Positions 6,160-29,674 of a DNA stretch of 30,747 nt are shown here, in pieces. Position numbers and translations under genes: made by a program. The stretch's first letter is position 1; each line of letters starts with the position of its first letter. The DNA lies in IMG/VR virus record IMGVR_UViG_3300030419_000048, positions 1-30,747 of that record; one strand, given 5' to 3'. The notes beneath the pieces are model-generated. The model worked only from the letters and a program-made list of their open reading frames with translations, made no database searches and was not told the DNA's origin. This stretch comes from a virus.

Positions 6160-6171
6160 ATTATAAATCCT

Positions 6172-8490: not shown

Positions 8491-8917
8491 TGTTCATTTC
8501 CTTCACTAAAACAGTATAATACTTTTTATACCCCTTGTTGGATAGTAATCTTTCCCATCCTTTTCTATAAGCCATGACTTCAATATTACTAATATTATTT
8601 TTCTTACAAAAATCAGCAGCTACTGAAGGCCATTCTTTCATCCATTCCCCTAATTTATTCTTCTTTGCTCCAACTAAATGTATTTGTAAATGTCGTTTAT
8701 TAGGATAAATTATAATTTGAGTAGTACATGCTCCAATAATTTTTTGTTCTTCTTCATCCAAGAATAACCAAAGTTGTTGCCTTTGATTCTTTAGCCATTC
8801 TTTTATATCATCTAATCCTACTTCTTCTAATCCTGTTTCTAATGGTTTCTTTAATAGTGGTGCAACACTAGACCATACAAGATCTATATGTTGAGGTTCA
8901 ACTTGATATATAATCAT
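8483..8917 (-). CDS. GNAT-like protein in the virion module
   Basis: A 144-aa protein with the secondary-structure rhythm of a GCN5-related N-acetyltransferase. It shows an N-terminal helix (LEEVGLDDIKEWL), a strand pair (LWLFLDEEEQKIIGACTTQI), a second beta segment (HLQIHLVGA), a helix, and a C-terminal GYKKYYTVLVKEM of the GNAT type. The acetyl-CoA loop R/QxxGxG/A is not clear (HLVGAKKNKLGEW), so catalysis is doubtful. Similar short GNAT-fold proteins recur beside tail and ejection genes of podoviruses, with no proven role. It is tightly coupled: ATGA overlap with the 685-aa gene upstream and an 8-nt overlap with the 772-aa gene downstream. It may act on, or be part of, those proteins. Confidence 0.6.
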   Translation of the reverse strand: MIIYQVEPQHIDLVWSSVAPLLKKPLETGLEEVGLDDIKEWLKNQRQQLWLFLDEEEQKIIGACTTQIIIYPNKRHLQIHLVGAKKNKLGEWMKEWPSVAADFCKKNNISNIEVMAYRKGWERLLSNKGYKKYYTVLVKEMNND

Positions 8918-15005: not shown

Positions 15006-17420
15006 TTACAATACTGCTGGAGCTACTGCCACTCCACTCCCACCAAAAGGATGCTTGGCAAAAGCTGCAAACACATAAGTACCATCATCAGCATTTATTC
15101 TATTATCTGTTCCTCTAAGTTTAAAACCATTAGAAAGGAAATCTACTTTAACTCCACTAAGAGTTGTTTCTGCATCACCATCATTACCTATTACATAATT
15201 TTCTGCTGGATTATATGTATCTCGTGCTCTGTCTAAAATAGTCCAAGGTTCATTATCACCATCAAATTTTATCATAACCATCTCAGGAGTAAAGCCACAG
15301 AATGAATAAGGACCATCTGTTTCTCCTTCTCCTGTATAAGTTCCAAACTTAGAAAATCCTGCTACTTCTACAAATGAATAAGCTAGATAAGTTTCAGTTG
15401 ATTTATTCACATTAACATCTGTTCCTATTGTAAAGGTTGTTGAGTTTGCTCCTGTAACAAAACCAGAAGAACTGGTTGCTCCATTTGCATCCGATAGTAC
15501 CCATTTCTCACTATAAACAGTAATTCCTGATTCCCAATTTGATGCAAGATGATTATCTGAATAACTACGAGGAAATATCCATACAGTAGTTGGAGTAACT
15601 CCTAGACCATGCCCAATAGTTGCTCCACTTCCTGTTCCAGTATATGTACTAATACTTATTCCAGCCGTTGTATCTACATATGTTGTTCCTGTATTAATAC
15701 TACCATCTGTATTAGATGATCCTGAATTACCAGCAGCCCAATTCCATGCTACATAAGTTCTACTACTTGTATTAACATCTCCAGTAGATAACTCACTACC
15801 ATCTCCAAGTGCAAAACCATCTGTAGCAAAGGATGTTACAGCATCTGTTACGTCATCTTCTATATCCCTATTACTCCAAAAGAGAGCTTTTCCAGTTCCT
15901 CGTGCTGCATCTTGAAAGACATGAGCAGCAGCATTACTTCTACACTTCATCCATACTATATCTGGTTGCATATTAGAATTACCACCAAAAGTAATAGACT
16001 GTGTACTACCATTTCCTGTATACGTAGCTACTTGGAAATTAGTAGATGGATCTGCAAGATCAGGAGCAGCTAAGTTAGTTGTATTCAATGCCAAGAAATT
16101 AGTAGGAGCACTATACTGCCATTCTTCTTCAGCAAAGTATGCATCAAATACAGCACTTGATTCATTACAAACTGCTGGACCCCATCCACCTCCATTAACC
16201 AATGTAGAACTTATTGTATATGCTGCACCTGTTCCACTTGAACCAGATGTAGGATCACCTGAGTTCTGCCATGTATCATTCTTTCCAAAGTATACAAAGC
16301 CATTATCAAGATCCATAGCTACACTTATAACATCTCCTACATCCCATGAATTTCCAAAGTCAGCAAGTGTATTATTTCTATATGTCTTTCCATCTAATGA
16401 TCTATAACCAAGGCTATCACCTGTACCATGCTTACTACTACTACCTAGTTCATGGTTTGATTGTACATCACATTGACTTATTCCTATTAGCCCACCTACA
16501 ACTACATCTGTAGATGTCCATTTAACTTCCCAATACCATTTACCCGTTCTTGGGAAAAAGGTTCCTTTAGCTGAATCTTGTGCTCCAGTACCATTTACAA
16601 ATCTTTTATTACCTTCTGATAATGTAATATTATCTTCTAAATGATCAGCTACATTCCATACACAATGATTATTAGTTGGAGTATCTGATGATTGATGATC
16701 TGAACTTATATTGTTTTCTGTGAAATCATTATTATTACCACTTACATCATTACCTAGATCACCACTAGATTCAAAATCTAAGAAGCATCCATTCGTACCA
16801 TAACTTCCACTGTACTCTTTTGGAATCCAAACACCTTTACTATTAGTTTCTCCAAAGTCTGCTGCTTCTGCTTGTGTACCATCTATTATATAAAATTCAG
16901 CTATATAGCCATCCATATAATTAGAACCTTCTTTACCTATATAATGTGCTGATGTACTATTTATATCAAATGCAAAATCTTCTGCTGGTGCTGAATCCGT
17001 AGATAATGATGCTATTGAACCATTTACATATAGTTTTAATCTATCACTGGCTGTGCTTTGTGTTGTATCAGCAGCTATAACTATATGATTCCAAGATGTA
17101 GGATCTCTAAAAACTCCACTAGTAACTTTAAAATTACTACCATCACTTATATATAATTTATTATCATTATCTGATATTTTAATTTCAGTACCACTTACTG
17201 AAAATAATGCTATTCCTCCACTAGTAGTACTTGCAAATTTACATAGTTTAAACCAGAAGCTCATAGTCCAAGTTGTTCTATTAGTATTAGAACTAGGACT
17301 TCTTGATAGATACGAGCTAGAAGAAAAATCAAACATACAAGAATTATCAATAGAATATGTAGTAGCTGCTCCAGCTTGAGCTGCTGCTGCTGCCATCATA
17401 TAGTTGGTAAAGATACTCAT
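15006..17420 (-). CDS. LamG-SPRY tail fibre B (receptor binding)
   Basis: An 804-aa adhesin. A concanavalin/LamG-3-like domain lies at about residues 20-195 (MSFWFKL, SWNHIVIAADTT, LKLYVNGSIASL, YIAEFYIIDGTQ). A SPRY domain lies at about 265-430 (GKWYWEVKW, GLIGISQ, GDVISVAMDLDNGFVYFGKN). The rest (about 480-804) is a DUF7483-like tail-fibre region (MQPDIVWMKCRS, AGNSGSSNTDGSINTGTTYV, HGLGVTPTTVWIFPR, YVFAAFAKHPFGG). The protein is paralogous to the 794-aa fibre upstream along its whole length. The N-terminus is short and Ala-rich and may attach to the tail. LamG and SPRY folds bind glycans or proteins, so a host-surface ligand is likely. It begins 1 nt after the chaperone-like gene ends. Confidence 0.78.
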   Translation of the reverse strand: MSIFTNYMMAAAAAQAGAATTYSIDNSCMFDFSSSSYLSRSPSSNTNRTTWTMSFWFKLCKFASTTSGGIALFSVSGTEIKISDNDNKLYISDGSNFKVTSGVFRDPTSWNHIVIAADTTQSTASDRLKLYVNGSIASLSTDSAPAEDFAFDINSTSAHYIGKEGSNYMDGYIAEFYIIDGTQAEAADFGETNSKGVWIPKEYSGSYGTNGCFLDFESSGDLGNDVSGNNNDFTENNISSDHQSSDTPTNNHCVWNVADHLEDNITLSEGNKRFVNGTGAQDSAKGTFFPRTGKWYWEVKWTSTDVVVGGLIGISQCDVQSNHELGSSSKHGTGDSLGYRSLDGKTYRNNTLADFGNSWDVGDVISVAMDLDNGFVYFGKNDTWQNSGDPTSGSSGTGAAYTISSTLVNGGGWGPAVCNESSAVFDAYFAEEEWQYSAPTNFLALNTTNLAAPDLADPSTNFQVATYTGNGSTQSITFGGNSNMQPDIVWMKCRSNAAAHVFQDAARGTGKALFWSNRDIEDDVTDAVTSFATDGFALGDGSELSTGDVNTSSRTYVAWNWAAGNSGSSNTDGSINTGTTYVDTTAGISISTYTGTGSGATIGHGLGVTPTTVWIFPRSYSDNHLASNWESGITVYSEKWVLSDANGATSSSGFVTGANSTTFTIGTDVNVNKSTETYLAYSFVEVAGFSKFGTYTGEGETDGPYSFCGFTPEMVMIKFDGDNEPWTILDRARDTYNPAENYVIGNDGDAETTLSGVKVDFLSNGFKLRGTDNRINADDGTYVFAAFAKHPFGGSGVAVAPAVL
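15690..15736 (-). repeat. 47-bp direct repeat, copy 1 (in fibre B)
   Basis: Identical over 47 nt to 18671-18717. It encodes the AGNSGSSNTDGSINT segment at about residues 562-577 of the 804-aa fibre. Its phase within the codons is the same as in the second copy, so an exchange here keeps frame. Confidence 0.85.
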
Positions 17421-17998: not shown

Positions 17999-20383
17999 TT
18001 ATCTACCGGGAGCTGGTGACAAACCATCACCACCTAATGGATATTTGGCAAATGCCCAAAAAATATACACACCACCATCAGCATTTCTTGATACATCACT
18101 ATTCCTAATTTTTACACCATTAGATAAAAAATCTAAATCAGCAGAACCTTCGGCAGCAGTATCATTTAGAACTAATCTTTCACTCATCACATTATACGTG
18201 CTTCTTTTATTATCCCACACAATCCAATCCGATGTTGAATCTACTCGTTTACTTACAAAAAAAGCTGGTTCAAATCCACAATAAGCAAAGGCTCCATCAG
18301 ACGATCCGTTCCCAACATAAGTACCAAATCTACTAAATCCTTCAACCTCTGCAAATGCATAGGCTACGTATGTTCTACCAGAGCCATTTACACCAACATC
18401 TGTTCCAATACTAAAAGTAGTGCTAGATGCTCCTGTAATTTGATTTGATGAAGAACTAGGTGCCTCATTATCATTAAGTTTCAGTTTTTCAGTAAAGGCT
18501 GTTACTCCATGTTCCCAATTTGCTGCAAGACGATGATCTCCATTAGAACGAGGCATAGTAAATACAGTAACAGGAGTTGTTCCTAGTCCATGTCCTACAG
18601 TTGCTGCACTACCTGTTCCAGTATAGGTACTTATAGAAATACCAGCCGTAGCATCTACATAGGTTGTTGTTGTATTAATACTACCATCTGTATTAGATGA
18701 TCCTGAATTACCAGCAGACCAACCATATCCTAAAAAAGAACCACTAGAAACATTTACCCAAGCTCCTGAACCAACAGTAAATCCATCACTACCAAAAGCA
18801 GTTAGACTATCACTACTTTCTGATTCAGCATCATTATCATTCCAGTTTATATACTTCTCAACACCACGAGCAGCATCATAAAGTGTCCAAACTCTACTAC
18901 CATCCCTTTGTTTAAGTAAAACTGCATCAGGTTGCATATTAGAATTACCATCAAATGTGACTGCATTAGAACTACCTGTACCAGAATAAATAACTGCCTG
19001 AAAATTAGTCGATCCATCAGGAATATCAGGACTAAAATTATCGGCACGTACTTCTTTGAACCCTGCTGGAGCAGCCGTATTAAATGATCTCTGTCCAAAG
19101 TTAGCAATTAAAGTTGAGTTACCTGTACCATAGTCGGCTGCAAATGCTGGTTGAAACATTCCAGATAGACTTGAAAAGGCTTCGTTAGATCCTGCTGCTG
19201 GATCACCACTGTTAGGATATGTACCATTAATTGAGAACCATATCTTTCCATTATCTAAATCAAGAGCTACTCCAACAATATCTCCAGCACTCATGGCACT
19301 TCCATAGGAAGAAGTTGTATTACCAGTAATCTTTTCTCCTTTGGTTGTAATTGCATAGCCGTTATTACCTGAGACTTGAGGAAAACTAGTTCCACCAGAA
19401 CCATCTTGGATATCCCATGCTGGACCTACTACACCTACAAATTCTCTATTAACACCACTTTGTCCTAATGTATCCAGTTCACACTCCCAATACCACTTAC
19501 CACTAGACATTCCAAAAGTTGCTCGTACATCATTTGAATTACCTGTATTACTGTTCGTCCATTTAAGACATCCCTCAGATAAAACACAACTACTTTCTCT
19601 ATGAGCATCATTATAATTCATAATTGCATAATTTTTAGTAGGACTATCCGTAACCTGATCTGCTGCTACCAAATTAGTGACAGTAAAATTATTTCCATTT
19701 CCACTAGAGTCAGTACCTAAAGAACTACTATCTGCAAACTTTAACCAGTATCCATTTGTTCCAAATGTAAGTCCTGATGGGTTAATGGGCCTCCATACTC
19801 CATTATCGTCAAACTCTCCTAGATCTGTAGCAGCTTGTTGTGTGCCATCCACAAAAATACACTCAGCTAGATAGCCGTCCCAATATCCTCCACTATTTCG
19901 ATGACCAAATATTTGGGCAGCAGCCGTATTTATATTAAAATCATAATTTTCACTAATGGAGTTATTTGTTTCATAATCAGTTAGATGTACACCATTATGA
20001 TATATTTTCATTCTATTGCTTTCTGTACCTTGAGTAGTATCAGCAGCTAAAATTATATGAGTCCAACCTGACATATCTCTAAACTGAGCACTAGGTCTTT
20101 TTAATCCTCCACCATCTATTAGATAAAGTGAAGAATTACTATCTGATAATAAAAACTCAAAATCTCCACCACCAGCACTAAAAGCATTCATTCCTGCACT
20201 AGTACTTTCTGCATTTCTGCAAAGTTTAAACCAATAACTTAATGTCCACGTTCTTCTATTTCCAGCAGAATCTGGAGTGAAAGATAACTGTGGACTATCG
20301 TCATCATTGAAACATAAAGAGTTCTCTATAGAATATGCAGCAGCTCCTCCACTCCCAAACATCTGTGTTCCAAATACTGGCAT
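17999..20383 (-). CDS. LamG-SPRY tail fibre A (paralogue)
   Basis: A 794-aa protein with the same layout as the fibre at 15006-17420: LamG-like domain (about 20-195; LSYWFKLC, WTHIILAADTTQ, MKIYHNGVHL, LAECIFVDGTQ), SPRY (about 265-430; GKWYWECEL, FVGVVG, GDIVGVALDLDNGKIWFSING), then a DUF7483-like C-terminal region (MQPDAVLLKQRD, SISTYTGTGSAATVGHGLG, YIFWAFAKYPLGG). It diverges most in the ligand-facing loops of LamG and SPRY, as expected for different receptors or different variants. The C-terminal third is best conserved and contains a 47-bp stretch identical to the other fibre. The ATG overlaps the stop of the 1045-aa fibre (TAATG). Role: host recognition. Confidence 0.78.
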   Translation of the reverse strand: MPVFGTQMFGSGGAAAYSIENSLCFNDDDSPQLSFTPDSAGNRRTWTLSYWFKLCRNAESTSAGMNAFSAGGGDFEFLLSDSNSSLYLIDGGGLKRPSAQFRDMSGWTHIILAADTTQGTESNRMKIYHNGVHLTDYETNNSISENYDFNINTAAAQIFGHRNSGGYWDGYLAECIFVDGTQQAATDLGEFDDNGVWRPINPSGLTFGTNGYWLKFADSSSLGTDSSGNGNNFTVTNLVAADQVTDSPTKNYAIMNYNDAHRESSCVLSEGCLKWTNSNTGNSNDVRATFGMSSGKWYWECELDTLGQSGVNREFVGVVGPAWDIQDGSGGTSFPQVSGNNGYAITTKGEKITGNTTSSYGSAMSAGDIVGVALDLDNGKIWFSINGTYPNSGDPAAGSNEAFSSLSGMFQPAFAADYGTGNSTLIANFGQRSFNTAAPAGFKEVRADNFSPDIPDGSTNFQAVIYSGTGSSNAVTFDGNSNMQPDAVLLKQRDGSRVWTLYDAARGVEKYINWNDNDAESESSDSLTAFGSDGFTVGSGAWVNVSSGSFLGYGWSAGNSGSSNTDGSINTTTTYVDATAGISISTYTGTGSAATVGHGLGTTPVTVFTMPRSNGDHRLAANWEHGVTAFTEKLKLNDNEAPSSSSNQITGASSTTFSIGTDVGVNGSGRTYVAYAFAEVEGFSRFGTYVGNGSSDGAFAYCGFEPAFFVSKRVDSTSDWIVWDNKRSTYNVMSERLVLNDTAAEGSADLDFLSNGVKIRNSDVSRNADGGVYIFWAFAKYPLGGDGLSPAPGR
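18671..18717 (-). repeat. 47-bp direct repeat, copy 2 (in fibre A)
   Basis: Identical over 47 nt to 15690-15736, 2981 bp away and in the same orientation. It encodes the same segment at about residues 556-571 of the 794-aa fibre. Mismatches begin at once on both sides. Confidence 0.85.
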
Positions 20384-23300
20384 TAGCTGAAAGCCTGTTG
20401 TACTGCACCAAGTTGAATACTTCCTGATGCTTTAACAAAGTATGGTATGATATCCACGGCATTAGCAGCAGTACTGAGAGTTATACCTGCACCACCAGCC
20501 GTTTCGTAATCTGTTCCTAAACTTAAAGTTCTTGAACCTGTTCCATCTTGAATACAAACTATAATTCCAGATTGTCCTACCTGCTCTGTACTTGGATTAG
20601 CAAAGGTAACATTACCTGTAAATGTAAGAACAAAGTTTTGATTGGTAGCAAAGTCCAGTGTTACACTTCCTGTATTACTTGTGTCCGTATCTGTTGTAGC
20701 AAGTAAAGTTCCAGTTATAGTAGTTCCATTTGCTGTCGTAGAAAGTTTTGAAGAATTATCATGGTAAAGTACTACAGCTCCATCAGTATTCATAACTGCC
20801 ATTGTCTCTGAAGTATCTTTCAAGAAATTTATACTTGCACCATTTGTACGGACAAGTAACCTTCCAGTTCCATTATCTGCAACATGACTGTCAGTAGCAT
20901 CATGATAGATCTGTAAATCATCACCTGTACCTAAAAGAATTTTATCATCGTCTTGCATATCCAAATTATTATTAAGAGTCATGACTCCATTAACAGATAC
21001 AGTACTTTGAAGATGAGTAGCACCTTCTACTGTAACAGTAGAGGCAAAGTTAGCAGCACCACCTACACTTAAAGCTCCTGATATACTAACAGCACCACCT
21101 ATAGTTGTTGTACCACCAACTGTTAGATTACCAACAAGTATTGTGTTACCTGAGACACAGACTGCATCATCAAATTCTGCTTTACCTGCTACAGTTAATG
21201 TACTTAGAAGATTGGTAGCTCCACCTACACTCAAGGCTCCTGCTATACTAGCAGCACCTCCGATAGTCGTAGTACCACCTACAGCTAAGTTACCTACAAG
21301 TACTGTATTACCTGAGACACATACATCGTCATCAAACTCTGCTTTACCAACAACAGTTGCTGTACCACCTACTCCTAAGTTACCTGTTAGAGTTGTGTTA
21401 CCAGCTATGGTTACTGTACCACCTACAGTTAAATTACCTACTAATATTGAATTACCTGATACACAAACGTCATCATCAAACTCTGCCTTGGATGCAAAAG
21501 TAGCAACACCACCCACACCTAATGTACCTGTTAGTGTAGTATTGCCAGCTATAGTAACTGTTGATGCAAAGTGTGCAGCACCTCCCACACTAAGAGCACC
21601 TCCTATACTAGCTGCTCCACCAATAGTGGCTGTACCTCCAACTGTTAAGTTACCTACTAGAACTGTATTTCCACTTACACATACAGCATCATCGAACTCA
21701 GCCTTACCTGCAACAGTTAGTGTACTAAGAAGATTAGTAGCTCCACCTACACTAAGTGCTCCTGCTACACTAGCAGCTCCACCTATGGTAGTAGTACCAC
21801 CAACTGCCAGATTTCCTACAAGTACTGTATTACCTGAGACACAAACGTCATCGTCAAACTCTGCTTTACCTACGGCTGTAAATGTTCCACCTACTCCAAG
21901 ATTGGCTGTTAAAGTTGTATTACCAACTATAGTTGCCGTACCACCTACAAATAAGTTACCACCTATGGTAGCATTATTAACTGATATATTACCTTCAACG
22001 GAAGCAGTAATACCTGTAAGATTAGAACCATCACCATAGTATGCACTTGCACATACCTTTGCATTTGCAGCTTGTACATTAGCACCAGCTATGGTTACTG
22101 TACTGGCAAAGTTAGCTACTCCACCTACACTTAGAGCACCTCCAATACTGGCAGCACCTCCAATAGTGGCTGTACCACCTACGGCTAAGTTACCTACTAA
22201 TACTGAGTTACCACTTACACATACGTCATCGTCAAACTCAACCTTGGCAGCAAAGGTAGCTATACCTGTTTGTGCCAGAGTACCACCTATAGATGCATTA
22301 CCTGCTACATCCAATGTACTTCCAAGACTTGTAGCACCTGATACACGTATTGTACTAAGGAAACCTGAAGCTCCAGATACAGTAGCTGTACTCAAGAAGT
22401 TAACTGCACCAGCTACACTAAGAGTACCACCAATCGTAGCATTACCTGTTATACGTAAAGCTGAAACAGATGTATTACCAGAAGCTGGAACATTCGTTAA
22501 ATTAGATCCATCACCATAGAAAGCAGAAGCACAAACCTTTGCATTGGCTGCTTGTACACCAGTACCTGCTATAGTTACAGTTCCTGTTATATTAAGATTA
22601 CCACCTATGGATGTATTACCTACTACGGATAAAGCTCCACCCACACCAAGTGAATCTGCCAAAGTCACAGCACCACCTATGGTAGCCGTACCTCCAACAG
22701 TCAAGTTGCCTACTAGTACTGAGTTACCTGATACACATACATCATCGTCAAACTCTGCCTTACCTACTACAGTTAATGTACTGAGTAAGTTCGTAGCTCC
22801 TCCAACACTAAGAGCACCTGCTATACTGGCAGCTCCACCTATCGTTGCTGTACCTGCCACGGCAAGATTTGTACCTATATTGGCATCACCACTAACCGAT
22901 ACATCTTTCTTAAATGTACCATCACCTGATACAGTAACTGTAGATTCAAAGGTAGCTGCACCTGTTCCTTTAAATGTACCACTGACAGATACATTGCCAG
23001 CTACATCCAGTGTACTTCCAAGGCTAACGGCTCCTGTTATGGTGGTAGTTCCACCTACGGCCAAGTTACCTACGAGTACAGTATTACCACTTACACATAC
23101 ATCGTCATCAAATTCTACCTTACTTACGAATTGGGATGTACCACTTACATATGCATTACCTACTACCGATATATTTCCTACACAGACATTTCCACCTATA
23201 CTGGAATTAACACCTGTAATATTGGAACCATCACCATAAAATGCAGAGGCACATACTTTTGCATTAGGTGCTGCTACATTAGCACCATCAATAGATACTG

Positions 23301-23520
23301 TACCACCTATTTGTACGTTACCAGATACAGAAGCATTACCATCTACTCCAAATGTACCTGTTGCCTTGGCTGCTCCTGTTGCAACTTGGAAAGCTATATT
23401 AGTACCATCACCTGTTTGTATCTGTGTAAGATCAGCAGAGACACCAGCATTGGCACTTACAGCCAGCTTTACGAGTTGTTTATATGTATCTGATATTTGT
23501 CTTCCTGTTAATGTGCTCAT
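20383..23520 (-). CDS. Large repetitive tail fibre
   Basis: I choose 23520 (MSTLTGRQISDTYKQL) as start: it forms ATGA with the upstream stop, and this N-terminus is the recurring 'xxTGRQIxxTYKxLLKxx' start of marine-phage fibres. The alternative ATG at 23535 adds 5 residues. 1045 aa. Residues about 70-850 are a beta-repeat built from GGTxTIGGxxSIxGALSVGG-like units, eight copies of EFDD(D/A)VCVSGN, and three copies of NAKVCASAFYGDGSNLTG-like units. After this come a GTGDDLQIYHDATDSHVADN-type module and an end domain (VGQSGIIVCIQDGTGSRTLS) shared with the 307-aa protein. The repeats probably form a long beta-solenoid or trimeric shaft. It is likely a side fibre that touches the host first. Confidence 0.75.
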   Translation of the reverse strand: MSTLTGRQISDTYKQLVKLAVSANAGVSADLTQIQTGDGTNIAFQVATGAAKATGTFGVDGNASVSGNVQIGGTVSIDGANVAAPNAKVCASAFYGDGSNITGVNSSIGGNVCVGNISVVGNAYVSGTSQFVSKVEFDDDVCVSGNTVLVGNLAVGGTTTITGAVSLGSTLDVAGNVSVSGTFKGTGAATFESTVTVSGDGTFKKDVSVSGDANIGTNLAVAGTATIGGAASIAGALSVGGATNLLSTLTVVGKAEFDDDVCVSGNSVLVGNLTVGGTATIGGAVTLADSLGVGGALSVVGNTSIGGNLNITGTVTIAGTGVQAANAKVCASAFYGDGSNLTNVPASGNTSVSALRITGNATIGGTLSVAGAVNFLSTATVSGASGFLSTIRVSGATSLGSTLDVAGNASIGGTLAQTGIATFAAKVEFDDDVCVSGNSVLVGNLAVGGTATIGGAASIGGALSVGGVANFASTVTIAGANVQAANAKVCASAYYGDGSNLTGITASVEGNISVNNATIGGNLFVGGTATIVGNTTLTANLGVGGTFTAVGKAEFDDDVCVSGNTVLVGNLAVGGTTTIGGAASVAGALSVGGATNLLSTLTVAGKAEFDDAVCVSGNTVLVGNLTVGGTATIGGAASIGGALSVGGAAHFASTVTIAGNTTLTGTLGVGGVATFASKAEFDDDVCVSGNSILVGNLTVGGTVTIAGNTTLTGNLGVGGTATVVGKAEFDDDVCVSGNTVLVGNLAVGGTTTIGGAASIAGALSVGGATNLLSTLTVAGKAEFDDAVCVSGNTILVGNLTVGGTTTIGGAVSISGALSVGGAANFASTVTVEGATHLQSTVSVNGVMTLNNNLDMQDDDKILLGTGDDLQIYHDATDSHVADNGTGRLLVRTNGASINFLKDTSETMAVMNTDGAVVLYHDNSSKLSTTANGTTITGTLLATTDTDTSNTGSVTLDFATNQNFVLTFTGNVTFANPSTEQVGQSGIIVCIQDGTGSRTLSLGTDYETAGGAGITLSTAANAVDIIPYFVKASGSIQLGAVQQAFS
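21000..23330 (-). repeat. Coding repeat array of the large fibre
   Basis: Internal repeats at both DNA and protein level. Copies of the Asp/Cys unit EFDDxVCVSGN are near plus-strand positions 21147, 21309, 21447, 21669, 21830, 22209, 22720 and 23081. Intervals are uneven (roughly 140-510 nt), because different numbers of Gly-rich TIGG/VSGN units separate them. The YGDGSN units are near 22026, 22503 and 23225. Blocks such as 'KAEFDDAVCVSGNT plus a GNLTVGGT' run are nearly identical between copies, so unequal recombination could change shaft length while keeping frame. Confidence 0.8.
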
Positions 23521-23792
23521 ATCGTTTGCCACCATCTATTTTCTGAATCCCAATTACTGGTACAGTTTTGCCAATCTATAGCTCTGCCACCATCATCAGG
23601 ACGAGGGTTACGTATTGCCGGGTTATCTCTAACATCAGGTACTTTATTCTGTGGATGGTTTTTCAGGTCATACTTACCTTCATAATCCTGTGGGCATACC
23701 AGCATCCCATAACTATTCATTTTCATAACTCTATGTGGATAAACAAATCCACATGTATCACACATTGCTAGAGCATTCTTATTACTAGCCAT
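23517..23792 (-). CDS. Small Cys-motif (zinc-finger-like) protein
   Basis: A 91-aa protein. The N-terminal half has CDTCGFVYPHRVMKMNSYG and LVCPQDYEGKYDLKNHPQN, a Cys-x2-Cys...Cys arrangement typical of small rubredoxin/zinc-ribbon-like phage proteins. The fourth potential ligand is Cys77 (NCTSNW) or a His (PHR, NHPQ). This 'CxxCGFxYPxRxMKxxSxGxLVCPxD' sequence is common in marine podovirus contigs, next to tail-adaptor genes; I know no function. The C-terminal half is Arg/Asp/Trp-rich and likely flexible. It lies between the second adaptor-like gene and the large fibre, and overlaps the fibre start by 4 nt (ATGA). A connector or fibre-attachment role is only a guess. Confidence 0.65.
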   Translation of the reverse strand: MASNKNALAMCDTCGFVYPHRVMKMNSYGMLVCPQDYEGKYDLKNHPQNKVPDVRDNPAIRNPRPDDGGRAIDWQNCTSNWDSENRWWQTI

Positions 23793-23793
23793 T

Positions 23794-24468
23794 TTATACC
23801 ATATTTAATTTAGGTGTGATAAATAAACTAGCCCTTTGTTTGTCCTCTTCCAATGCTCTAACTAATAATTCTTCATAATTTCCTTTTAACATTCCTATTC
23901 TATTTGCATCTACACCGGGAGTTTTCATGGCAAGATAATAGGAAAGTCCACATGTAAGGGGTGGGAGAAATCTTTTAGGAAGATCTGCATTCTGTTCAGC
24001 AGACTTATTAACATCTTCCAGTTCCCGTATTCCTTCTATATTTAAAATATCTGTACTATTCTCAGGTATGGGCCATACTAGAACAGTTGGATTATCTCTA
24101 TCTCTTTTTATTGTAAACTGACTTGGCCTACCTGTCTGCTTCTTATTGGGAATAATCTGATATTCCTCAAAACTAATTCTTTGTAGTTGTATATCTGTGT
24201 CATCTCTACGTAATACTACTTCCAATGCATCCAAGGTATCACTTGCCAGTGCATAGGAAGTGGTACTGGTAGCTACTGTTACCAATGTAGTATAGGTAGT
24301 CCATAGCAGAATACCTCTATTCTGCCAATCCTTTAACATTAAATTAATAGACCTACGTGCAGAGGCTGGAGTATGACCGAGAGTTTGCTCTCCCCCGATC
24401 ATCTCCGTAGCTTCTTGGATCACCTCATCTATATCTAAGTTAAAGTTAAATGTTCCTGACGTTGCCAT
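23794..24468 (-). CDS. Head-tail adaptor / tail-tube protein 2
   Basis: A 224-aa protein. The N-terminus DIDEVIQEATEMIGGEQ, the 'ARRSINLMLKDWQNRGILLW' helix pair, a central beta sheet (TSYALASDTLDALEVVLRR) and 'RPSQFTIKRDRDNPTVLVWP' are the layout of the adaptor/tail-tubular-A family (P22 gp4 / T7 gp11-like). These form the dodecameric ring under the portal. A conserved 'ADLPKRFLPPLTCGLSYYLA' helix, expected near the end, is present at about residues 171-190. It differs from the other adaptor-like gene at 27703-28383 and is separated from it by the basic-protein cassette. The start lies 6 nt after the neighbouring stop; the ribosome site is weak. Confidence 0.7.
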   Translation of the reverse strand: MATSGTFNFNLDIDEVIQEATEMIGGEQTLGHTPASARRSINLMLKDWQNRGILLWTTYTTLVTVATSTTSYALASDTLDALEVVLRRDDTDIQLQRISFEEYQIIPNKKQTGRPSQFTIKRDRDNPTVLVWPIPENSTDILNIEGIRELEDVNKSAEQNADLPKRFLPPLTCGLSYYLAMKTPGVDANRIGMLKGNYEELLVRALEEDKQRASLFITPKLNMV

Positions 24469-24474
24469 GCTAAA

Positions 24475-24663
24475 CTATTTCTTTTTACCATGAGTATGAT
24501 GCGTTTCACTTAGAAAGAAACCTACTACACCTGATGCACCACAAGCAAGCATAACTATATTCTGCCATAATTCAACTGGTACGGAAATACCAACCATAGC
24601 TAGAACACCTGCCAATGCAGCATAGGAAGAAGGCTCTTTAAATCTATTTATAATATGAGTCAT
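24475..24663 (-). CDS. 62-aa two-helix membrane protein (holin-like)
   Basis: A 62-aa protein with two predicted membrane spans: about residues 13-30 (SYAALAGVLAMVGISVPV) and 36-51 (IVMLACGASGVVGFFL). The tail is His/Lys-rich (ETHHTHGKKK). The opening INRFKEPSSYAAL followed by a two-span hairpin is a common layout for small phage holin-like proteins. If a holin, it is far from the lysis genes and would be an extra one; it could also act at the virion-membrane interface. The ATG overlaps the stop of the 48-aa gene (ATGA) and has AAGGAG upstream within that gene. Confidence 0.6.
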   Translation of the reverse strand: MTHIINRFKEPSSYAALAGVLAMVGISVPVELWQNIVMLACGASGVVGFFLSETHHTHGKKK

Positions 24664-24806
24664 CTTGTTCTCCTTTTTGGTTTTTTTGTCAACTTACTCC
24701 CTGCACTCTTCTGTATACCTGCACCATGCTTTCTAGTCCAGTTCTTGGCTATATTAGGATGGTTAGCATACATATAAGATCTTTGAGCTTTTGACTTAAA
24801 CGGCAT
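24660..24806 (-). CDS. 48-aa MPFKSKAQ-type phage protein (short gene)
   Basis: A small gene: ATG at 24806 and TGA at 24660-24662, 48 residues. It starts MPFKSKAQRSYMYANHPNIA, continues KNWTRKHGAG, and ends in a Lys/Arg run. A short protein with this MPFKSKAQ(Q/R)RYxYAxxPxIA opening is widespread in phages and is reported as small, basic and of unknown function. The start overlaps the stop of the 308-aa basic protein (TAATG), and the stop overlaps the start of the 62-aa membrane protein (ATGA). Codon-level coupling and a family-like sequence make it real. Confidence 0.72.
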   Translation of the reverse strand: MPFKSKAQRSYMYANHPNIAKNWTRKHGAGIQKSAGSKLTKKPKRRTR

Positions 24807-25732
24807 TACTTTTTATATCCTTTACCATAACCACGTAGAGCAGCACCAACACCGATAGGTCCACCTGCTTTACGTCTTACTGTTCCACCACGTTTTCTAA
24901 TCTCAAATCCACCCATAGCTCGTAGTTCTTCTTCAGATGGTAAGGCTCTCTGTGAACCACCTAGACCCATTTCATCTGCTATTCCTGCTGTTGGAGGTGC
25001 ATATCTACCTGTGGCTACAACTATTACTCGTGGACTACCATCAGGATTTCTACCTCTTTGGACAAGTCTAACTGTTCCATTCTTAATTAATCTGCGTAGC
25101 TGTGCTCGTGAATAACTTTTAGGATCAGGATCTACTTTCATCTTGGATGGTAAAGCAGTATTTACTCCTTCACCTAGATTACCTCTTTGAGCAGCCGATC
25201 CTCTAACAAGAGGTAATCTGGTAGGTTGTCCAGCAGCTTCAGGACGTTGAGCTACCATACGTTGAATAAGTTTACTTCCTCTACCAGTACGCTTTGCTGC
25301 TTCTTGTTCTAGTCTACTTGCTAAAGCAGCTTCTTGTTTTCCTATATCTCGTGCTCTAGCTTCAGGAGAAGCTGCACCTGATGTCATTGGTGGAAGTGTT
25401 CCAGTTGATCTTCTTCCACGAACTTTACCTGCTACTTTCTTTTTAGTATCTATAGGCTTTTTACGTCTTTTTTCTGCACGACTTGCTAAAGATTTTCGTA
25501 GTTGCGTAACAGTTATTCCTATTTGTCTAGCTACTTTTGTTTCAGTCGCAGTAGGTGGACCTTTCTTAGCTACAATAGGTTTATCTGTCTTTGGTTTACG
25601 ACCACGCTTTTTACGCTTACGTCCACGAGTTTCTTTCTTAACTATAGTAGTTTCATCTGTCTTTGGTTTAGAACTACTAGCTTTACGTTTACGAGTTTTT
25701 GTCTTAGCTTTAGTTTTAACTTTAAGAGCCAT
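24806..25732 (-). CDS. Basic DNA-binding-like virion protein D (AT-hook-like)
   Basis: A 308-aa protein with 80 Lys+Arg (26%). The N-terminal tag MALKVKTKAKTKTRKRKA matches that of the 284-aa protein. Residues 36-48 (RGRKRKKRGRKPK) contain two AT-hook-like cores, of which KRGRKPK is the better match. An approximate repeat KPKTDETTIVKK / KPKTDKPIVAKK flanks it. A possible helix-turn-helix (ARQIGITVTQLRKSLA) is at about 68-83. The C-terminus has 'EIRKRGGTVRRKAGG' and 'IGVGAALRGYGKGYKK', the last shared with the 284-aa protein. It is preceded by a strong AGGAGG 6 nt before the ATG. A nucleoid-like role in the head is plausible; it is not a known family to me. Confidence 0.6.
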   Translation of the reverse strand: MALKVKTKAKTKTRKRKASSSKPKTDETTIVKKETRGRKRKKRGRKPKTDKPIVAKKGPPTATETKVARQIGITVTQLRKSLASRAEKRRKKPIDTKKKVAGKVRGRRSTGTLPPMTSGAASPEARARDIGKQEAALASRLEQEAAKRTGRGSKLIQRMVAQRPEAAGQPTRLPLVRGSAAQRGNLGEGVNTALPSKMKVDPDPKSYSRAQLRRLIKNGTVRLVQRGRNPDGSPRVIVVATGRYAPPTAGIADEMGLGGSQRALPSEEELRAMGGFEIRKRGGTVRRKAGGPIGVGAALRGYGKGYKK

Positions 25733-25733
25733 C

Positions 25734-26312
25734 TTACCCTCCTACTTTTCCACCTTTGTAGAGAGAAGCTACAAAAGAATTACCATCTGTACTCATTTTA
25801 CCACCAGACTTACGTTTAGCAGTTCCACCTTTTCTTAGTTGTTTAGCTTTTAACTGAGCACCACGAGTTCCAGTTTTAGGCATCTTTGATGGTATATCAA
25901 GAGGTGTTTTACTACGTAAAAATCCTTTACTACGTGAACCTTGATTTTCTTTTATAAATGTTCCAGCCTTCTTTTCTCTACTTCTTTTAGCTTTTTGTAA
26001 TCTTGCTAGAACTGTAGGATTTTTAACTTTTCTAATCATAGCTGATATTTCTTTACCACTATACTCTTCAGCTATATCTGCTGCACTCATACCTTGAAGT
26101 TGTTTTCTAACTCCTGACATTTCAGGAAGAACTCTTTTTGCAACTTGCTCAGTCTTCTTACTACGATCAGCACGTTTAGCTCCTGCTTGAGCTTCTGATT
26201 GTACTCGTGCTGTATCTTTTTTTACAGCTTTTTTCTTTGAAGCCTTTGGTTTTAATTTCCGTTGAATACGTTTCCTTTGAATTGCTCTTATACCTTTAGA
26301 TAAAATACCCAT
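25734..26312 (-). CDS. Basic virion-module protein C
   Basis: A 192-aa protein with 53 Lys+Arg (28%). It is Lys/Arg-rich from the start (KGIRAIQRKRIQRKLKPKA) and has a central helical region, roughly residues 60-110 (EISAMIRKVKNPTVLARLQKA). The C-terminus is 'RKGGTAKRKSGGKMSTDGNS' followed by 'FVASLYKGGKVGG'. It thus has the 'KGGxxKRKSGGKM' and 'YKGGKV' segments seen in the neighbouring 172-aa protein. It begins 1 nt after the 284-aa gene ends, with AGAGGATC before the ATG. No enzymatic motif is visible. It probably binds nucleic acid or an acidic partner; the shared C-terminal tags suggest a common destination in the particle. Confidence 0.6.
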   Translation of the reverse strand: MGILSKGIRAIQRKRIQRKLKPKASKKKAVKKDTARVQSEAQAGAKRADRSKKTEQVAKRVLPEMSGVRKQLQGMSAADIAEEYSGKEISAMIRKVKNPTVLARLQKAKRSREKKAGTFIKENQGSRSKGFLRSKTPLDIPSKMPKTGTRGAQLKAKQLRKGGTAKRKSGGKMSTDGNSFVASLYKGGKVGG

Positions 26313-26313
26313 T

Positions 26314-27168
26314 TTAAGATCCTCTCTTTCTTACGGCACCACCACCACGTAGAGCAGCACCCATTCCTATAAGACCACCCTTACTATATTTAGATGTTCT
26401 CATTCCTCTTGTACCAGTTCCTTTTGAACCACCACCTGAATCTTTAGTATATGCAGAAGATTTAGTTGTACCTGTACTTCCTCTATATCCACCTATAGCA
26501 GTTTCACCCGGTTTTCTTCCTCTCATTTCTTCTAGCATAGCTCTTAATCGTCTAACTTTACCTGTTTCTTTTCTCGATTGTGCATTGGTTATAGCAACTT
26601 GTATTTCTCTTGGAGTAGGATTATATCCTTTACGAATTTCACCTGTTTGTTTAAACCAATCTGGATCTGAAGTTTTAGGTTTTCCTCGTCTTTTCTTTCC
26701 TTGTTCAATTGCACGTTGCTGACCTTTAACATCTTTACGTCCTTGCCTAGCTGTAGCTTCAGCATCAGACTTAGCCATTGATTTTCTTAATCTAGTTAAT
26801 TCTGTTTGTTCTGCTGCTGTAATTGTACCTCTCTGTTTTTTAACTTCTAGTTGAGTTTTCCTTTTTACTCGTCCTTGTCTACCACGGGATGCTTTCCAAC
26901 CTGAACCTGTAGCTGTTCCTTCTGTTAATCCTTTTTGTCCACTACCTGTAGATACTTTACCAGTATCGCCTTTACGAGCAGCTCTAACACTCCCACCAGT
27001 AACAGGATCACGACTAGCACCTTCTTCTACAACATAATCTTTTCTAAAGCGTAATCCTTTTTGCGTAGCTTTACCATTCTTACCCTTACCACCTGCTGCT
27101 GCTGCTGGTACAGGTGTTTTACGTTTACGCTTTTTTGTCTTAGCTTTAGTTTTTACTTTTATAGCCAT
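26314..27168 (-). CDS. Basic virion-module protein B
   Basis: A 284-aa protein with 73 Lys+Arg (26%). The N-terminal MAIKVKTKAKTKKRKRK is identical at 15 of 17 positions to that of the 308-aa protein. The middle is low complexity (Gly/Thr/Lys/Arg) with a possible coiled coil around 'AAEQTELTRLRKSMAKSDAE'. The end is 'SKYSKGGLIGMGAALRGGGA' plus VRKRGS, sharing GxGAALRGxG with the 308-aa protein. AAAGGAG lies 9 nt before the start. A Lys-rich head tail that neutralises DNA charge is the simplest reading; sequence alone cannot tell a DNA-compacting protein from a scaffold that is expelled. Confidence 0.6.
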   Translation of the reverse strand: MAIKVKTKAKTKKRKRKTPVPAAAAGGKGKNGKATQKGLRFRKDYVVEEGASRDPVTGGSVRAARKGDTGKVSTGSGQKGLTEGTATGSGWKASRGRQGRVKRKTQLEVKKQRGTITAAEQTELTRLRKSMAKSDAEATARQGRKDVKGQQRAIEQGKKRRGKPKTSDPDWFKQTGEIRKGYNPTPREIQVAITNAQSRKETGKVRRLRAMLEEMRGRKPGETAIGGYRGSTGTTKSSAYTKDSGGGSKGTGTRGMRTSKYSKGGLIGMGAALRGGGAVRKRGS

Positions 27169-27184
27169 TTGTCTGTCTCCTTTA

Positions 27185-27703
27185 TTAAACTTTACCGCCA
27201 GCTTTGTAGCCGATCATAATTTTACCACCACCTCTGCGAGAGACAGATCCACCTTTAGAATACTTTCTCTTTGGTGTACCACCTTTACGTTTCTTTACTT
27301 TTCCACCTTTTGACTTGGAAACTTTACCACCTGCTTTAGCTCCAAAATTAGGATCATTTAAAATAGTGTCCATTAAATCATCTTCTTTTTGCTTTCGCAT
27401 TCGGTACTTTTCTCCTCTATCTCCTTCATATCCTTTAGGTGGAGGTAAATCCTCTTTAGTTACTTTTGTATCTGGCTTTTTCTTCTTACGCCATTCAGGT
27501 GGGTTATAAGGACTTGTACCAGTACCGGGAACCATCTCCCAATCACCGGGACGATTTATTGTACCTCTGTACGCTTTTCCTTCTGCTAGATCCTTGGCTG
27601 TTCCTACTCGTGTATCACGTACATTTGTACCTGCACCAGTTTTCTTTCCAGCTCCACCTCTACGTCTACGAATTGTTTTTGAAGTATTAGTTCGACTAAC
27701 CAT
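27185..27703 (-). CDS. Basic virion-module protein A
   Basis: A 172-aa protein with 46 Lys+Arg (27%) and 17 Asp+Glu, net about +29. It opens with an Arg patch (KTIRRRRGGAGKK). A central segment contains Pro, Trp, Asp and Lys (NPPEWRKKKKPDTK, EDLPPPKGYEGDRG). The last 50 residues are a run of Gly-Gly/Lys units: AGGKVSKSKGG, KVKKRKGG, KYSKGGSVSRRGGGK and IGYKAGGKV at the extreme C-terminus. The ATG overlaps the stop of the first adaptor-like gene (TAATG), with AAGGAG just upstream. It is the first of the four basic proteins in transcription order. Confidence 0.6.
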   Translation of the reverse strand: MVSRTNTSKTIRRRRGGAGKKTGAGTNVRDTRVGTAKDLAEGKAYRGTINRPGDWEMVPGTGTSPYNPPEWRKKKKPDTKVTKEDLPPPKGYEGDRGEKYRMRKQKEDDLMDTILNDPNFGAKAGGKVSKSKGGKVKKRKGGTPKRKYSKGGSVSRRGGGKIMIGYKAGGKV

Positions 27704-28383
27704 TATTGTGCTCCTTGTATTACAGTATTAGGACCACCCACTGGATTACGTGGATTTTCCATATCATCCTGCCTCATTCTACGAGATTGATTTCTAAGTG
27801 CATCTATTGCATTTTTATAACTACCTTCCCATTCCTGTACTACATTCCAACTCTTGGTGAATCGTGCTGACTCTACCATGCAAGCACTAAAGAGTGCAGT
27901 ATAGGCAAATTCACTAAAGTAGTTTGAGGTTGTTGCACTTGTCCCTGTTGCAGAAGATAAGGGAATAGGTCTGCGTGTATATTGTATTTCTCCTGACACT
28001 GCTGAAGCAGGAGTTGGTACTATGTAAATGGATGTATTATTCTTACGTGCATAATATCGTGGAGTACCTGAAGATGTGCTGGCGTGAGGCCAGTAATCTA
28101 TAGCATACTCATATGTTCTTTGTAATAGAGTGGTAATATTAGATGAGGCACTCGTTTTAAAATTAACATTCCTTACTACAAGAGTATCGGCTGGCAGACT
28201 AACCGTAGGATTATTTGCCGTAAATGAGAAAGTGGCAAAGTTATCCAGACCGGGATCATCCAGTTCTTTTATCAGACGATCTTCTGCCTTCTCTACAAAC
28301 TTGGGAATCTGTTCCTCATATTCTGAAGAATCATTTTCAGATGTATTTATAAGATCTGTTTTAAGGAATGCATAATTAGGCAT
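27703..28383 (-). CDS. Head-tail adaptor / tail-tube protein 1
   Basis: A 226-aa protein. It opens with PNYAFLKTDLINTSENDSSE and 'QIPKFVEKAEDRLIKELDD', the helical start of the short-tail adaptor/connector family. Then come a beta region (ATFSFTANNPTVSLPADTLV, GEIQYTRRPIPL) and a C-terminal helix pair (YFSEFAYTALFSACMVESAR, NAIDALRNQSRRMRQD). Proteins of this form sit below the portal and bind the tail nozzle. There is a second such gene at 23794-24468. It is preceded by AGGATAAG 4 nt before the ATG and ends at the TAATG shared with the first basic protein. Weak alternatives are a gp6-like head completion protein. Confidence 0.7.
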   Translation of the reverse strand: MPNYAFLKTDLINTSENDSSEYEEQIPKFVEKAEDRLIKELDDPGLDNFATFSFTANNPTVSLPADTLVVRNVNFKTSASSNITTLLQRTYEYAIDYWPHASTSSGTPRYYARKNNTSIYIVPTPASAVSGEIQYTRRPIPLSSATGTSATTSNYFSEFAYTALFSACMVESARFTKSWNVVQEWEGSYKNAIDALRNQSRRMRQDDMENPRNPVGGPNTVIQGAQ

Positions 28384-28774: not shown

Positions 28775-29674
28775 TTAGCTTCCAGCGTTTCCACGCCAGC
28801 CTCTCCAATCGGAAACACCAAAGCTATAACGCTCTCGTGCTTTAAATCGAAGATTGCCAGTGTCAAAATCTGGCTCCATCTTTGTCTGAAGTGGAGTACG
28901 TGTGAACATCTTTGTACCATTAGGAACATCGGTTTTTACAAACCAATCATCAGTTCCAGTGAAACGTCTATTGACATAGAATCCGTTAGGAATCATGCCC
29001 ATGTGACGAGTGGCATTGATATCATTATTAGCACCACCGGGTTTGCCGGGAGTATTCAGAATGGTATCAGCAGTATTCCATGAATCAACAGGAATATGCA
29101 AAGATACAGCACTTGCACCTATGAGGATACCACGATCATCCTTGGTCTTTTGGACGTTGGTGATAGCAGTCTCAAGAGTTGCAATAGCCAATGCACCAGC
29201 AGATTCCAGATTGCTCTGGTTTCCATCAGAAATGGTAGGATGGGCAGCACTAAAGAATGCAACACCATCTCCAATCGTATCGGAAAATCCGTTGGTAAAC
29301 AGATTAGCAGCTTTGACTTCCTTGGTATTTGCCATTGCACGAGCCAAACCTCTGGCACGTAGTTTTGCAAAGGTGTCATACAAGTTGTCTTCCATTGCTT
29401 CTTCTGTAATTGCAAAAGCTAGAGCTACAGTCTCTGCCGTGTAACGGGCAGTATAACTCTCTTGTGCATCATCATAAGTAATAGCAGCCCCTTCAGATTT
29501 AACTGGAGCAGTGCCGAAACCTGTAAATAGAACTTCTTCTTCAAAGGCCCGATCAGAATTTTCAACGTCATAAAGTGCTTTATGTTCATCGTCAACCTGA
29601 CCATATTCCAACCCGAAGACGGCATTTAAGCCGGGAAGAAGTTCTTTGGCAATACTAGCTCTGTTTACAGCCAT
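28775..29674 (-). CDS. Major capsid protein (HK97 fold, Mu gpT-like)
   Basis: A 299-aa protein. It has the main features of the HK97-type family related to Mu gpT. The N-terminal arm (ASIAKELLPGLNAVFGLEYG) is followed by a Phe/Thr-rich loop (EEEVLFTGFGTAP) and the spine-helix region (TEEAMEDNLYDTFAKLRARG, LARAMANTKEVKAANLFTNG). An A-domain (AFFSAAHPT) and C-terminal strands (FDTGNLRFKARERYSFGVSD) complete it. No delta-domain-sized N-terminal extension is seen, so any scaffold is separate. A strong AAGGAGA precedes the ATG, in keeping with high expression. It lies between a decoration-like gene and a hairpin. Confidence 0.85.
   Translation of the reverse strand: MAVNRASIAKELLPGLNAVFGLEYGQVDDEHKALYDVENSDRAFEEEVLFTGFGTAPVKSEGAAITYDDAQESYTARYTAETVALAFAITEEAMEDNLYDTFAKLRARGLARAMANTKEVKAANLFTNGFSDTIGDGVAFFSAAHPTISDGNQSNLESAGALAIATLETAITNVQKTKDDRGILIGASAVSLHIPVDSWNTADTILNTPGKPGGANNDINATRHMGMIPNGFYVNRRFTGTDDWFVKTDVPNGTKMFTRTPLQTKMEPDFDTGNLRFKARERYSFGVSDWRGWRGNAGS

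Follow-up and report, generated by a model that had tools for sequence, protein, structure and literature searches.

Short C-terminal tags recurring on unrelated basic proteins beside a phage capsid gene are candidate virion address labels

The window analysed here, a viral contig of 30,747 bases (IMG/VR record IMGVR_UViG_3300030419_000048), holds on its minus strand part of a late region like that of short-tailed phages, in which four adjacent genes encode very basic proteins of 308, 192, 284 and 172 amino acids (aa). These proteins end in short C-terminal tags, and in related phages such tags are present on many unrelated protein bodies, are selected as protein, have been swapped between orthologues and are tied to one head module. 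The late genes run in the order two small genes, the major capsid protein (MCP), a 106-aa protein, a first adaptor, the four basic open reading frames (ORFs), a 48-aa basic ORF, a 62-aa protein predicted to contain a hydrophobic stretch and a second adaptor, followed by fibre, ejection-like and lysis genes. The four proteins are part of a variable basic accessory set whose genes lie between those for the MCP and the second adaptor, and the elements of this slot and its borders are listed below (K+R, lysine plus arginine).

28775..29674, minus strand: MCP, 299 aa (Pfam Phage_capsid_4, E 7e-15; PHROG major head protein)
27703..28383, minus strand: adaptor 1, 226 aa, upstream border of the tagged-gene slot (Pfam SU10_adaptor, E 1e-20)
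27185..27703, minus strand: 172-aa basic protein with a GYKAGGKV end (ORF; orthologues)
27188..27211, minus strand: GYKAGGKV C-terminal tag of the 172-aa protein (same end on unrelated proteins of near relatives)
26314..27168, minus strand: 284-aa basic protein with an RG tag (ORF; homologues)
26317..26367, minus strand: C-terminal RG tag GMGAALRGGGAVRKRGS of the 284-aa protein (sequence comparison)
27118..27168, minus strand: N-terminal 17-residue patch MAIKVKTKAKTKKRKRK of the 284-aa protein (DNA 46/51 against the 308-aa gene)
25734..26312, minus strand: 192-aa basic protein with a YD-type tag (ORF; orthologue in L001)
25737..25793, minus strand: C-terminal tag STDGNSFVASLYKGGKVGG of the 192-aa protein (YD-type core GNxxVxSxY plus GGKV)
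24806..25732, minus strand: 308-aa basic protein with an RG tag (ORF; homologues in L354-L384)
24809..24865, minus strand: C-terminal RG tag GGPIGVGAALRGYGKGYKK of the 308-aa protein
25682..25732, minus strand: N-terminal 17-residue patch MALKVKTKAKTKTRKRK of the 308-aa protein
24660..24806, minus strand: fifth basic ORF of the slot, 48 aa, 29% K+R, untagged (orthologues in L001 and L354)
23794..24468, minus strand: adaptor 2, 224 aa, downstream border of the slot (Pfam SU10_adaptor, E 2e-11)

The four consecutive basic genes are present where a sequence-only reading of this DNA had placed them, with K+R contents of 26.0% (308-aa), 27.6% (192-aa), 25.7% (284-aa) and 26.7% (172-aa) against 2.6-15.3% in the 21 other window proteins checked, isoelectric points of 10.6-11.7 and a net charge of +29 to +57 each. 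The set described in that reading as four genes is adjoined by a fifth, the 48-aa basic ORF, which overlaps the stop of the 308-aa gene. Its placement of the genes between two adaptor-like genes is borne out, with both bordering genes matching SU10_adaptor (PF24175) at 75.4 and 44.9 bits, above the Pfam cut-off of 27 bits, and the border formed by adaptor 1 is the same in 11 of 11 long B-type contigs in which both adaptors were found. The 308- and 284-aa proteins have in common an N-terminal patch (15 of the first 17 residues and 46 of 51 bases alike, with no similarity past the patch), as had been claimed, and C-terminal RG tags (..GVGAALRGYGKGYKK and ..GMGAALRGGGAVRKRGS, respectively), the element previously written as GxGAALRGxG, whose recurrence is far beyond chance. 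The 192-aa protein carries a YD-type tag that runs into GGKV; its end had been given as YKGGKV and in fact continues for two residues (SLYKGGKVGG), while the YKAGGKV end given for the 172-aa protein is exact (GYKAGGKV). Orthologues of the 172-aa protein in L001 and L355-L359 (L numbers denote loci of the collection) retain the GYKAGGKV tail, which is also found on unrelated bodies, the 96-aa protein of L001 and the 221- and 72-aa proteins of L002, and the tail of the 192-aa protein is the same in L002 and L354.

A known domain or fold for the four bodies was rejected, as none had a PHROG match at E<=1, the best Pfam match was at E 0.025, under the cut-off, and no fold match was obtained. An AlphaFold2 (AF2) model of the 308-aa protein has some helices and a disordered tail (mean predicted local distance difference test score, pLDDT, 59; tag region about 35-42), and the predicted disorder of the tag is as expected of a linear motif. 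Foldseek with this model returned nothing below E 1.6, and when the PDB was queried with individual tags and with a profile of the tags, the sole result was a chance match of 9 residues in a dehydrogenase.

A search with the MCP recovered 80 related loci in IMG/VR, and related MCPs (32-52% identity) are encoded by isolates including the pelagiphages HTVC023P and HTVC027P, the Roseobacter phages CRP-901 and CRP-902, Planktothrix phage Pag-Yong1 and DSL-LC04, among others. The K/R-rich ORFs 3' of the MCP in these relatives carry a few recurring endings on many unrelated proteins, namely the RG tag (RGxGxAxRGxG..), the DG tag (..RADGIAQRGKTRGRMV-stop; DGxAxRGKTxGxx-stop), the NRLY tag (..SGHNRLY-stop), the YD tag (..GxxxVxSxYD; xYD-stop) and the further tag GYKAGGKV, with the tags following a flexible K-x-GG linker. 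Tagged phages include the SAR11 phage HTVC023P, which has two RG-tagged proteins (gp32, QGZ17661.1, and gp51, QGZ17680.1), and Planktothrix phage Pag-Yong1 (UMO75986.1). The K+R fraction of tagged bodies is about 0.2-0.3, with some DG-tagged proteins less basic (12-16% K+R), and the domains found on tagged proteins are SLT (one protein), LysM (four), DUF5872 and DUF6321. RG-tagged SLT transglycosylase and LysM proteins occur at L020 3826-5151, L061 2571, L065 10006 and L074 9297; both domains are common in entry or lysis proteins. A literature text search found the tag strings in no paper, and tblastn with short tags against isolate phages, a method too insensitive for the purpose, returned one Planktothrix phage group or nothing.

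The endings recur more often than chance would give. In an unbiased count of four-residue gapped patterns across MCP-selected loci, RG.G.A and G.G.A..G ranked first, being found within the 25 C-terminal residues in 35-36 body clusters versus 0 mid-protein, though trimming of the bodies and splitting of short ones (as seen for one small family) inflated these cluster counts. Shuffling the tails 200 times left RG.G.A in 2.0 clusters on average and in 6 at most, and a composition artefact is ruled out by the shuffling and the mid-protein controls. A stricter count yielded at least 36 mutually unlinked RG-tagged bodies (E<=1) and at least 68 DG-tagged bodies (E<=0.1), which merge to 5 and 19 when taken as connected components at lenient E-values; the SLT, LysM, DUF5872 and DUF6321 domains among the carriers imply that the truly independent folds are more than a few.

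To avoid circularity, IMG/VR DNA able to encode each tag was also scanned without selection by lineage. Among the matches listed, the RG pattern was C-terminal in 55 loci, 44 of them with lineage head genes, compared with 9 of 62 loci for the other RG matches (Fisher 4e-13), and those nine include internal or N-terminal RG arrays from the same lineage. RG heptads stand in tandem arrays or at the N-terminus of small proteins at L103 5765, L109 9212, L181 9741, L190 1856, L100 986, L130 207 and L085 17016, so the RG motif is not always C-terminal. The DG pattern, again among the matches listed, produced 162 matches in 119 loci, 153 of the 162 C-terminal and 141 exactly 3 residues before the stop; 112 of the 116 loci with a C-terminal DG match carry lineage genes, and three of the remaining four (L252, L299 and L312) are short pieces of records encoding the lineage MCP. 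Positions set by the search pattern are conserved by construction, and unforced positions are likewise conserved among the matches listed, with R at -16 (119/136), S at -18 (109), K at -7 (128) and I or C at -12 (135). The NRLY pattern had 131 matches, 125 of which fall in K/R-rich ORFs of lineage contigs; five of the other six belong to one homologous family and one is due to chance. A control pattern with the same codons in reversed order matched 15 times in the whole collection with no common position, ruling out chance pattern hits.

The tags are conserved as protein. Pairs of DG tags within a locus on unlinked bodies (n = 50) are 90% identical in residues, with 45% of codons identical versus 37% expected from codon usage, and 0 of the 50 pairs are free of synonymous differences; for the RG tag, codon identity is 0.525 versus 0.415 expected. 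Since the tags agree in residues and not in codons, selection acts on the protein and the tags are old, and recent DNA copying of the C-terminal tags is ruled out by the codon comparison. RG tags on unrelated proteins of one genome resemble each other at free positions (similarity 0.563 versus 0.364 permuted; s.d. 0.039, maximum 0.494 of 1000). Tags are also exchanged on orthologous bodies: the 192-aa orthologue in L001 (53% identity, in a locus whose MCP is 97% identical) has an RG tag in place of YD, and homologues of the 284-aa protein in L361-L365 (33% identity, E 3e-14) have a YD-type tag instead of RG. Homologues of the 308-aa protein in L354-L384 keep an RG-type tag as the N-terminal half changes.

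The N-terminal patch has a different history. Its DNA is near-identical over 51 bases, ends abruptly and is otherwise found only in the near-sibling L354, a pattern best explained, from the sequence comparison, as a recent local copy. An N-terminal tag as a general signal is ruled out on this distribution, and the paired layout of N- and C-terminal tags that had been put forward is not sustained, with the KVKTKAKTK patch confined to the window and its near-sibling; of the tags expected to be conserved across divergent phages, the C-terminal ones recur beside the MCP and the N-terminal patch does not. A further N-terminal motif returned by the discovery script, EI...KN.LA.G, was traced to one small family split by clustering.

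Tagged genes are concentrated near the capsid gene. In 12 long RG-type contigs (the window included), the slot from the MCP to adaptor 2 contains 82 unassigned ORFs, 58 of them basic and 26 tagged, versus 527 ORFs, 46 basic and 1 tagged outside the slot (Fisher among basic ORFs, 2e-7), and the gene content of the slot varies by genome. Across 12 long DG-type records (744 kb), every one of the 18 tags shares the strand of the MCP, with 17 of 18 located 1.7-4.7 kb downstream of it; tagged genes are also located between TerL and the portal gene in L111, L134, L154 and L163. The sole tagged ORF outside the RG-type slot (L207 15174; G009 15174-16262) encodes 362 aa downstream of a very large virion gene. 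An NRLY-tagged family of 104-106 aa was observed in L421, L419, L457, L477 and L489, and its L421 member shares a contig with the ejection genes and the gene for the 733-aa virion protein, remote from the MCP slot.

The type of tag follows the MCP clade. In the MCP tree, NRLY tags group in a single clade of 23 rows with support of 100/98, and YD tags are mostly in its sister (44 rows, where a few of the YD labels are false). At the deepest supported split, the DG tag is confined to the side of HTVC023P, where 33 of 39 tagged rows have it, against 0 of the 37 tagged rows on the side of the window, the DG loci having been fetched by their tag, which makes their absolute frequencies meaningless. 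A clade-specific head receptor would give such a split, as would common descent by itself. The MCP of AAA160-P02 is 52% identical to that of the window and its locus has none of the tags tested; CRP-901 and CRP-902 likewise have no tags.

Other recurring termini were observed in the collection. The C-terminus (K/R)GCG(K/A)(V/I)M..R.K.TK ends 8 of 8 ORFs holding the motif in the fetched loci (L058 3035, L086 9847, L100 1722, L109 9892, L190 4497, L502 4854, L503 6927 and L529 3633). Proteins of the pelagiphage type end in or near ..YYKD(I/L/M) or ..YYG.. (L516 127, 10291 and 10581; L082 21361; L502 5102; L558 4774), which are possibly the YD tag of that clade. In the untagged L083 (CRP-902; 5098-10349) and L084 (CRP-901; 6776-10484), six proteins, one annotated as a nuclease, have the common start M(A/G)NP(V/L/I)K.. 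and are encoded between the portal and GroES genes; this start is perhaps an N-terminal counterpart of the tags. Small basic proteins with a calcium-loop-like start, DL(T/S)GDGxVTxxDxLxGRG, are encoded at L081 8646, L051 11157, L059 10672 and L188 2959. Untagged members of the same MCP family also sit in longer bacterial contigs (L548 and L545; a Salinisphaera hydrothermalis isolate and a Dehalococcoidia bin chromosome) and are possible prophages.

The head module accompanying the tags, for which the MCP serves as the marker, is of the HTVC023P type, with the order TerL, portal, GroES, scaffold, two small proteins, MCP and adaptor present in 9 long relatives. The window starts inside this module (the 30337 and 29693 genes, MCP and adaptor) and is without TerL and portal because the record is a fragment. 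The same head order is shared with HTVC023P-type pelagiphages and the CRP-901 group, whose MCPs are 49-52% identical to that of the window, and the tags are not described in the text searched on these phages (PMC9599517, PMC10149686). Sequence search of the MCP against the PDB gave no match. Its AF2 model has a predicted HK97-type fold (pLDDT 72) and matches T5, gene transfer agent and encapsulin structures in the PDB (E 1e-6 to 1e-8, template modelling score about 0.45). Elsewhere in the window, 15006-17420 and 17999-20383 are a paralogous fibre/virion gene pair with phrog_19943 as the best match for both, and 20383-23535 encodes a 1050-aa fibre-like protein with many repeats of the type KAEFDDDVCVSGN..VGNLxVGGT.

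The C-terminal tags are probably head or virion address labels on variable basic cargo. The idea that shared termini direct the basic proteins to a common site has good support for the C-termini, from the dozens of unrelated carriers, the protein-level conservation, the near-confinement to one head module, the adjacency to the capsid gene and the differences among clades, and it does not extend to the N-terminal patch, which is local. A component of the head, for which the inner face of the MCP, the scaffold or the portal are candidates, would bind the tag during assembly, and the bound tag would draw the attached body, whatever its kind, into the prohead. The bodies would probably be delivered along with the DNA and have different jobs, with cell-wall entry suggested for the SLT and LysM carriers, while the very basic bodies perhaps compact DNA or serve in counter-defence. 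The chances are roughly even that the wider form of this reading holds, namely a modular C-terminal address code in which a few interchangeable tags, matched to the capsid clade, load an open-ended and fast-changing assortment of unrelated proteins into particles for delivery with the genome. Several points weigh against tags as address labels. No virion proteome of any tagged phage was found in the literature searched, no receptor gene was found that tracks the tags, position in a late operon is no proof of incorporation, the SLT and LysM carriers could be lysis proteins, and the agreement between tag and capsid clade may simply reflect common descent. An RG or DG tag is present in only 17 of 76 same-MCP loci from bacterial and archaeal genome collections, many of which end early and some of which, though untagged, have other repeated ends (YYKD, KGCGxxM). 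The 59 of 76 same-capsid loci without tags indicate that the head does not need them; the tags, not being universal, serve accessory proteins rather than head building.

An alternative contained in the sequence-only reading is a co-assembled DNA-neutralising core, in which the basic bodies condense the packaged DNA and the tags mediate contacts among them. The net charges, the disorder in the 308-aa model, the several tagged basic proteins per genome and the likeness of tags within a genome fit such a core, but SLT and LysM proteins and less basic bodies (the 12-16% K+R of some DG carriers) are tagged as well, DNA binding needs no fixed DGxAxRGKTxG register, and many relatives with the same capsid have no tags, which argues against an essential core; this explanation appears unlikely. 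Much the same doubt attaches to tags that act in the infected cell, in host takeover, localisation to a membrane or assembly site, or lysis, on proteins that never enter virions. Variable accessory genes suit host takeover and SLT and LysM are frequent in lysis proteins; however, the tags track the head module and not the host, being shared by the SAR11 phage HTVC023P and Planktothrix phage Pag-Yong1 and occurring in metagenome-assembled genome bins of several phyla (the assignment of phage contigs to bins being weak), and the genes are part of a head-assembly operon adjoining the MCP.

Less probable again are accessory proteins of the neck or tail, with the tag docking on an adaptor or the portal and not in the head interior. 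The slot is flanked by two SU10-type adaptor genes, as this would predict, but adaptor genes are equally present in untagged relatives, and some tagged genes lie between TerL and portal or near ejection-protein genes (L421). A cause at the level of DNA, with recent copying or recombination sites at gene ends and no protein function, is very improbable for the C-terminal tags and already largely refuted. Local copying does occur, as the 46 of 51 bases shared by the N-terminal patches attest, and the GAALRG core of the two RG tags in the window uses the same codons; lineage-wide, however, the tags keep residues and not codons, and no DG pair lacks a synonymous change.

As head address labels, the tags would form a system like the capsid-targeting sequence (CTS) of phage T4, but C-terminal and with several interchangeable tags. 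The T4 CTS on IPI, IPII, IPIII and Alt is an N-terminal peptide of about 10 residues that has been proven to direct proteins to the head and is cleaved off by the gp21 protease; the T4 internal proteins are taken into the core and ejected from the particle, and T4 relatives have further basic proteins whose ends resemble the CTS (PMC9026906). Both cases have a short terminal peptide on otherwise different small basic proteins, with carriers that vary between related phages, and the variable bodies behind one peptide are here the unlinked RG- and DG-tagged sets (at least 36 and at least 68); unlike the CTS, the conserved tags are C-terminal, of several kinds, not known to be processed and candidate rather than proven head signals. 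In phage P1, a capsid-targeting sequence directs the antirestriction cargo DarB into the head (PMC9024508), which is similar in that a terminal stretch sends accessory cargo to the head and differs in being one protein system with dedicated partners and not a tag on dozens of unrelated proteins. Cargo-loading peptides of encapsulins (PDB 7s2t, EncA with the EncB targeting peptide) are short, usually C-terminal and carried by unrelated cargo inside an HK97-fold shell, a combination also found here, with a shell predicted from the AF2 model to have this fold encoded nearby. Encapsulins are not DNA-packed phage heads, the likeness of the peptides rests on layout and not on sequence relation, and the MCP model, matching encapsulins and phage capsids alike, is compatible with the comparison without supporting it specifically. 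The ejection proteins of P22 are likewise accessory proteins in the head of a short-tailed phage that are delivered with the DNA (PMC8402733), but no common terminal tag has been described for them and they are not homologous by the searches run.

The phage group concerned is very common in marine and freshwater systems. The capsid protein of the relative vSAG 37-F6, to which that of AAA160-P02 is 86% identical, is a member of the cluster that holds the most abundant viral proteins of ocean proteomes (PMC5490008). If the tags are address labels, the variable genes beside the capsid gene would amount to a readable list of virion cargo, identifiable from the last 15 residues of each protein, and bodies that match no profile would gain a testable place of action. 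A short C-terminal peptide of this kind would also offer a handle for loading proteins into phage heads.

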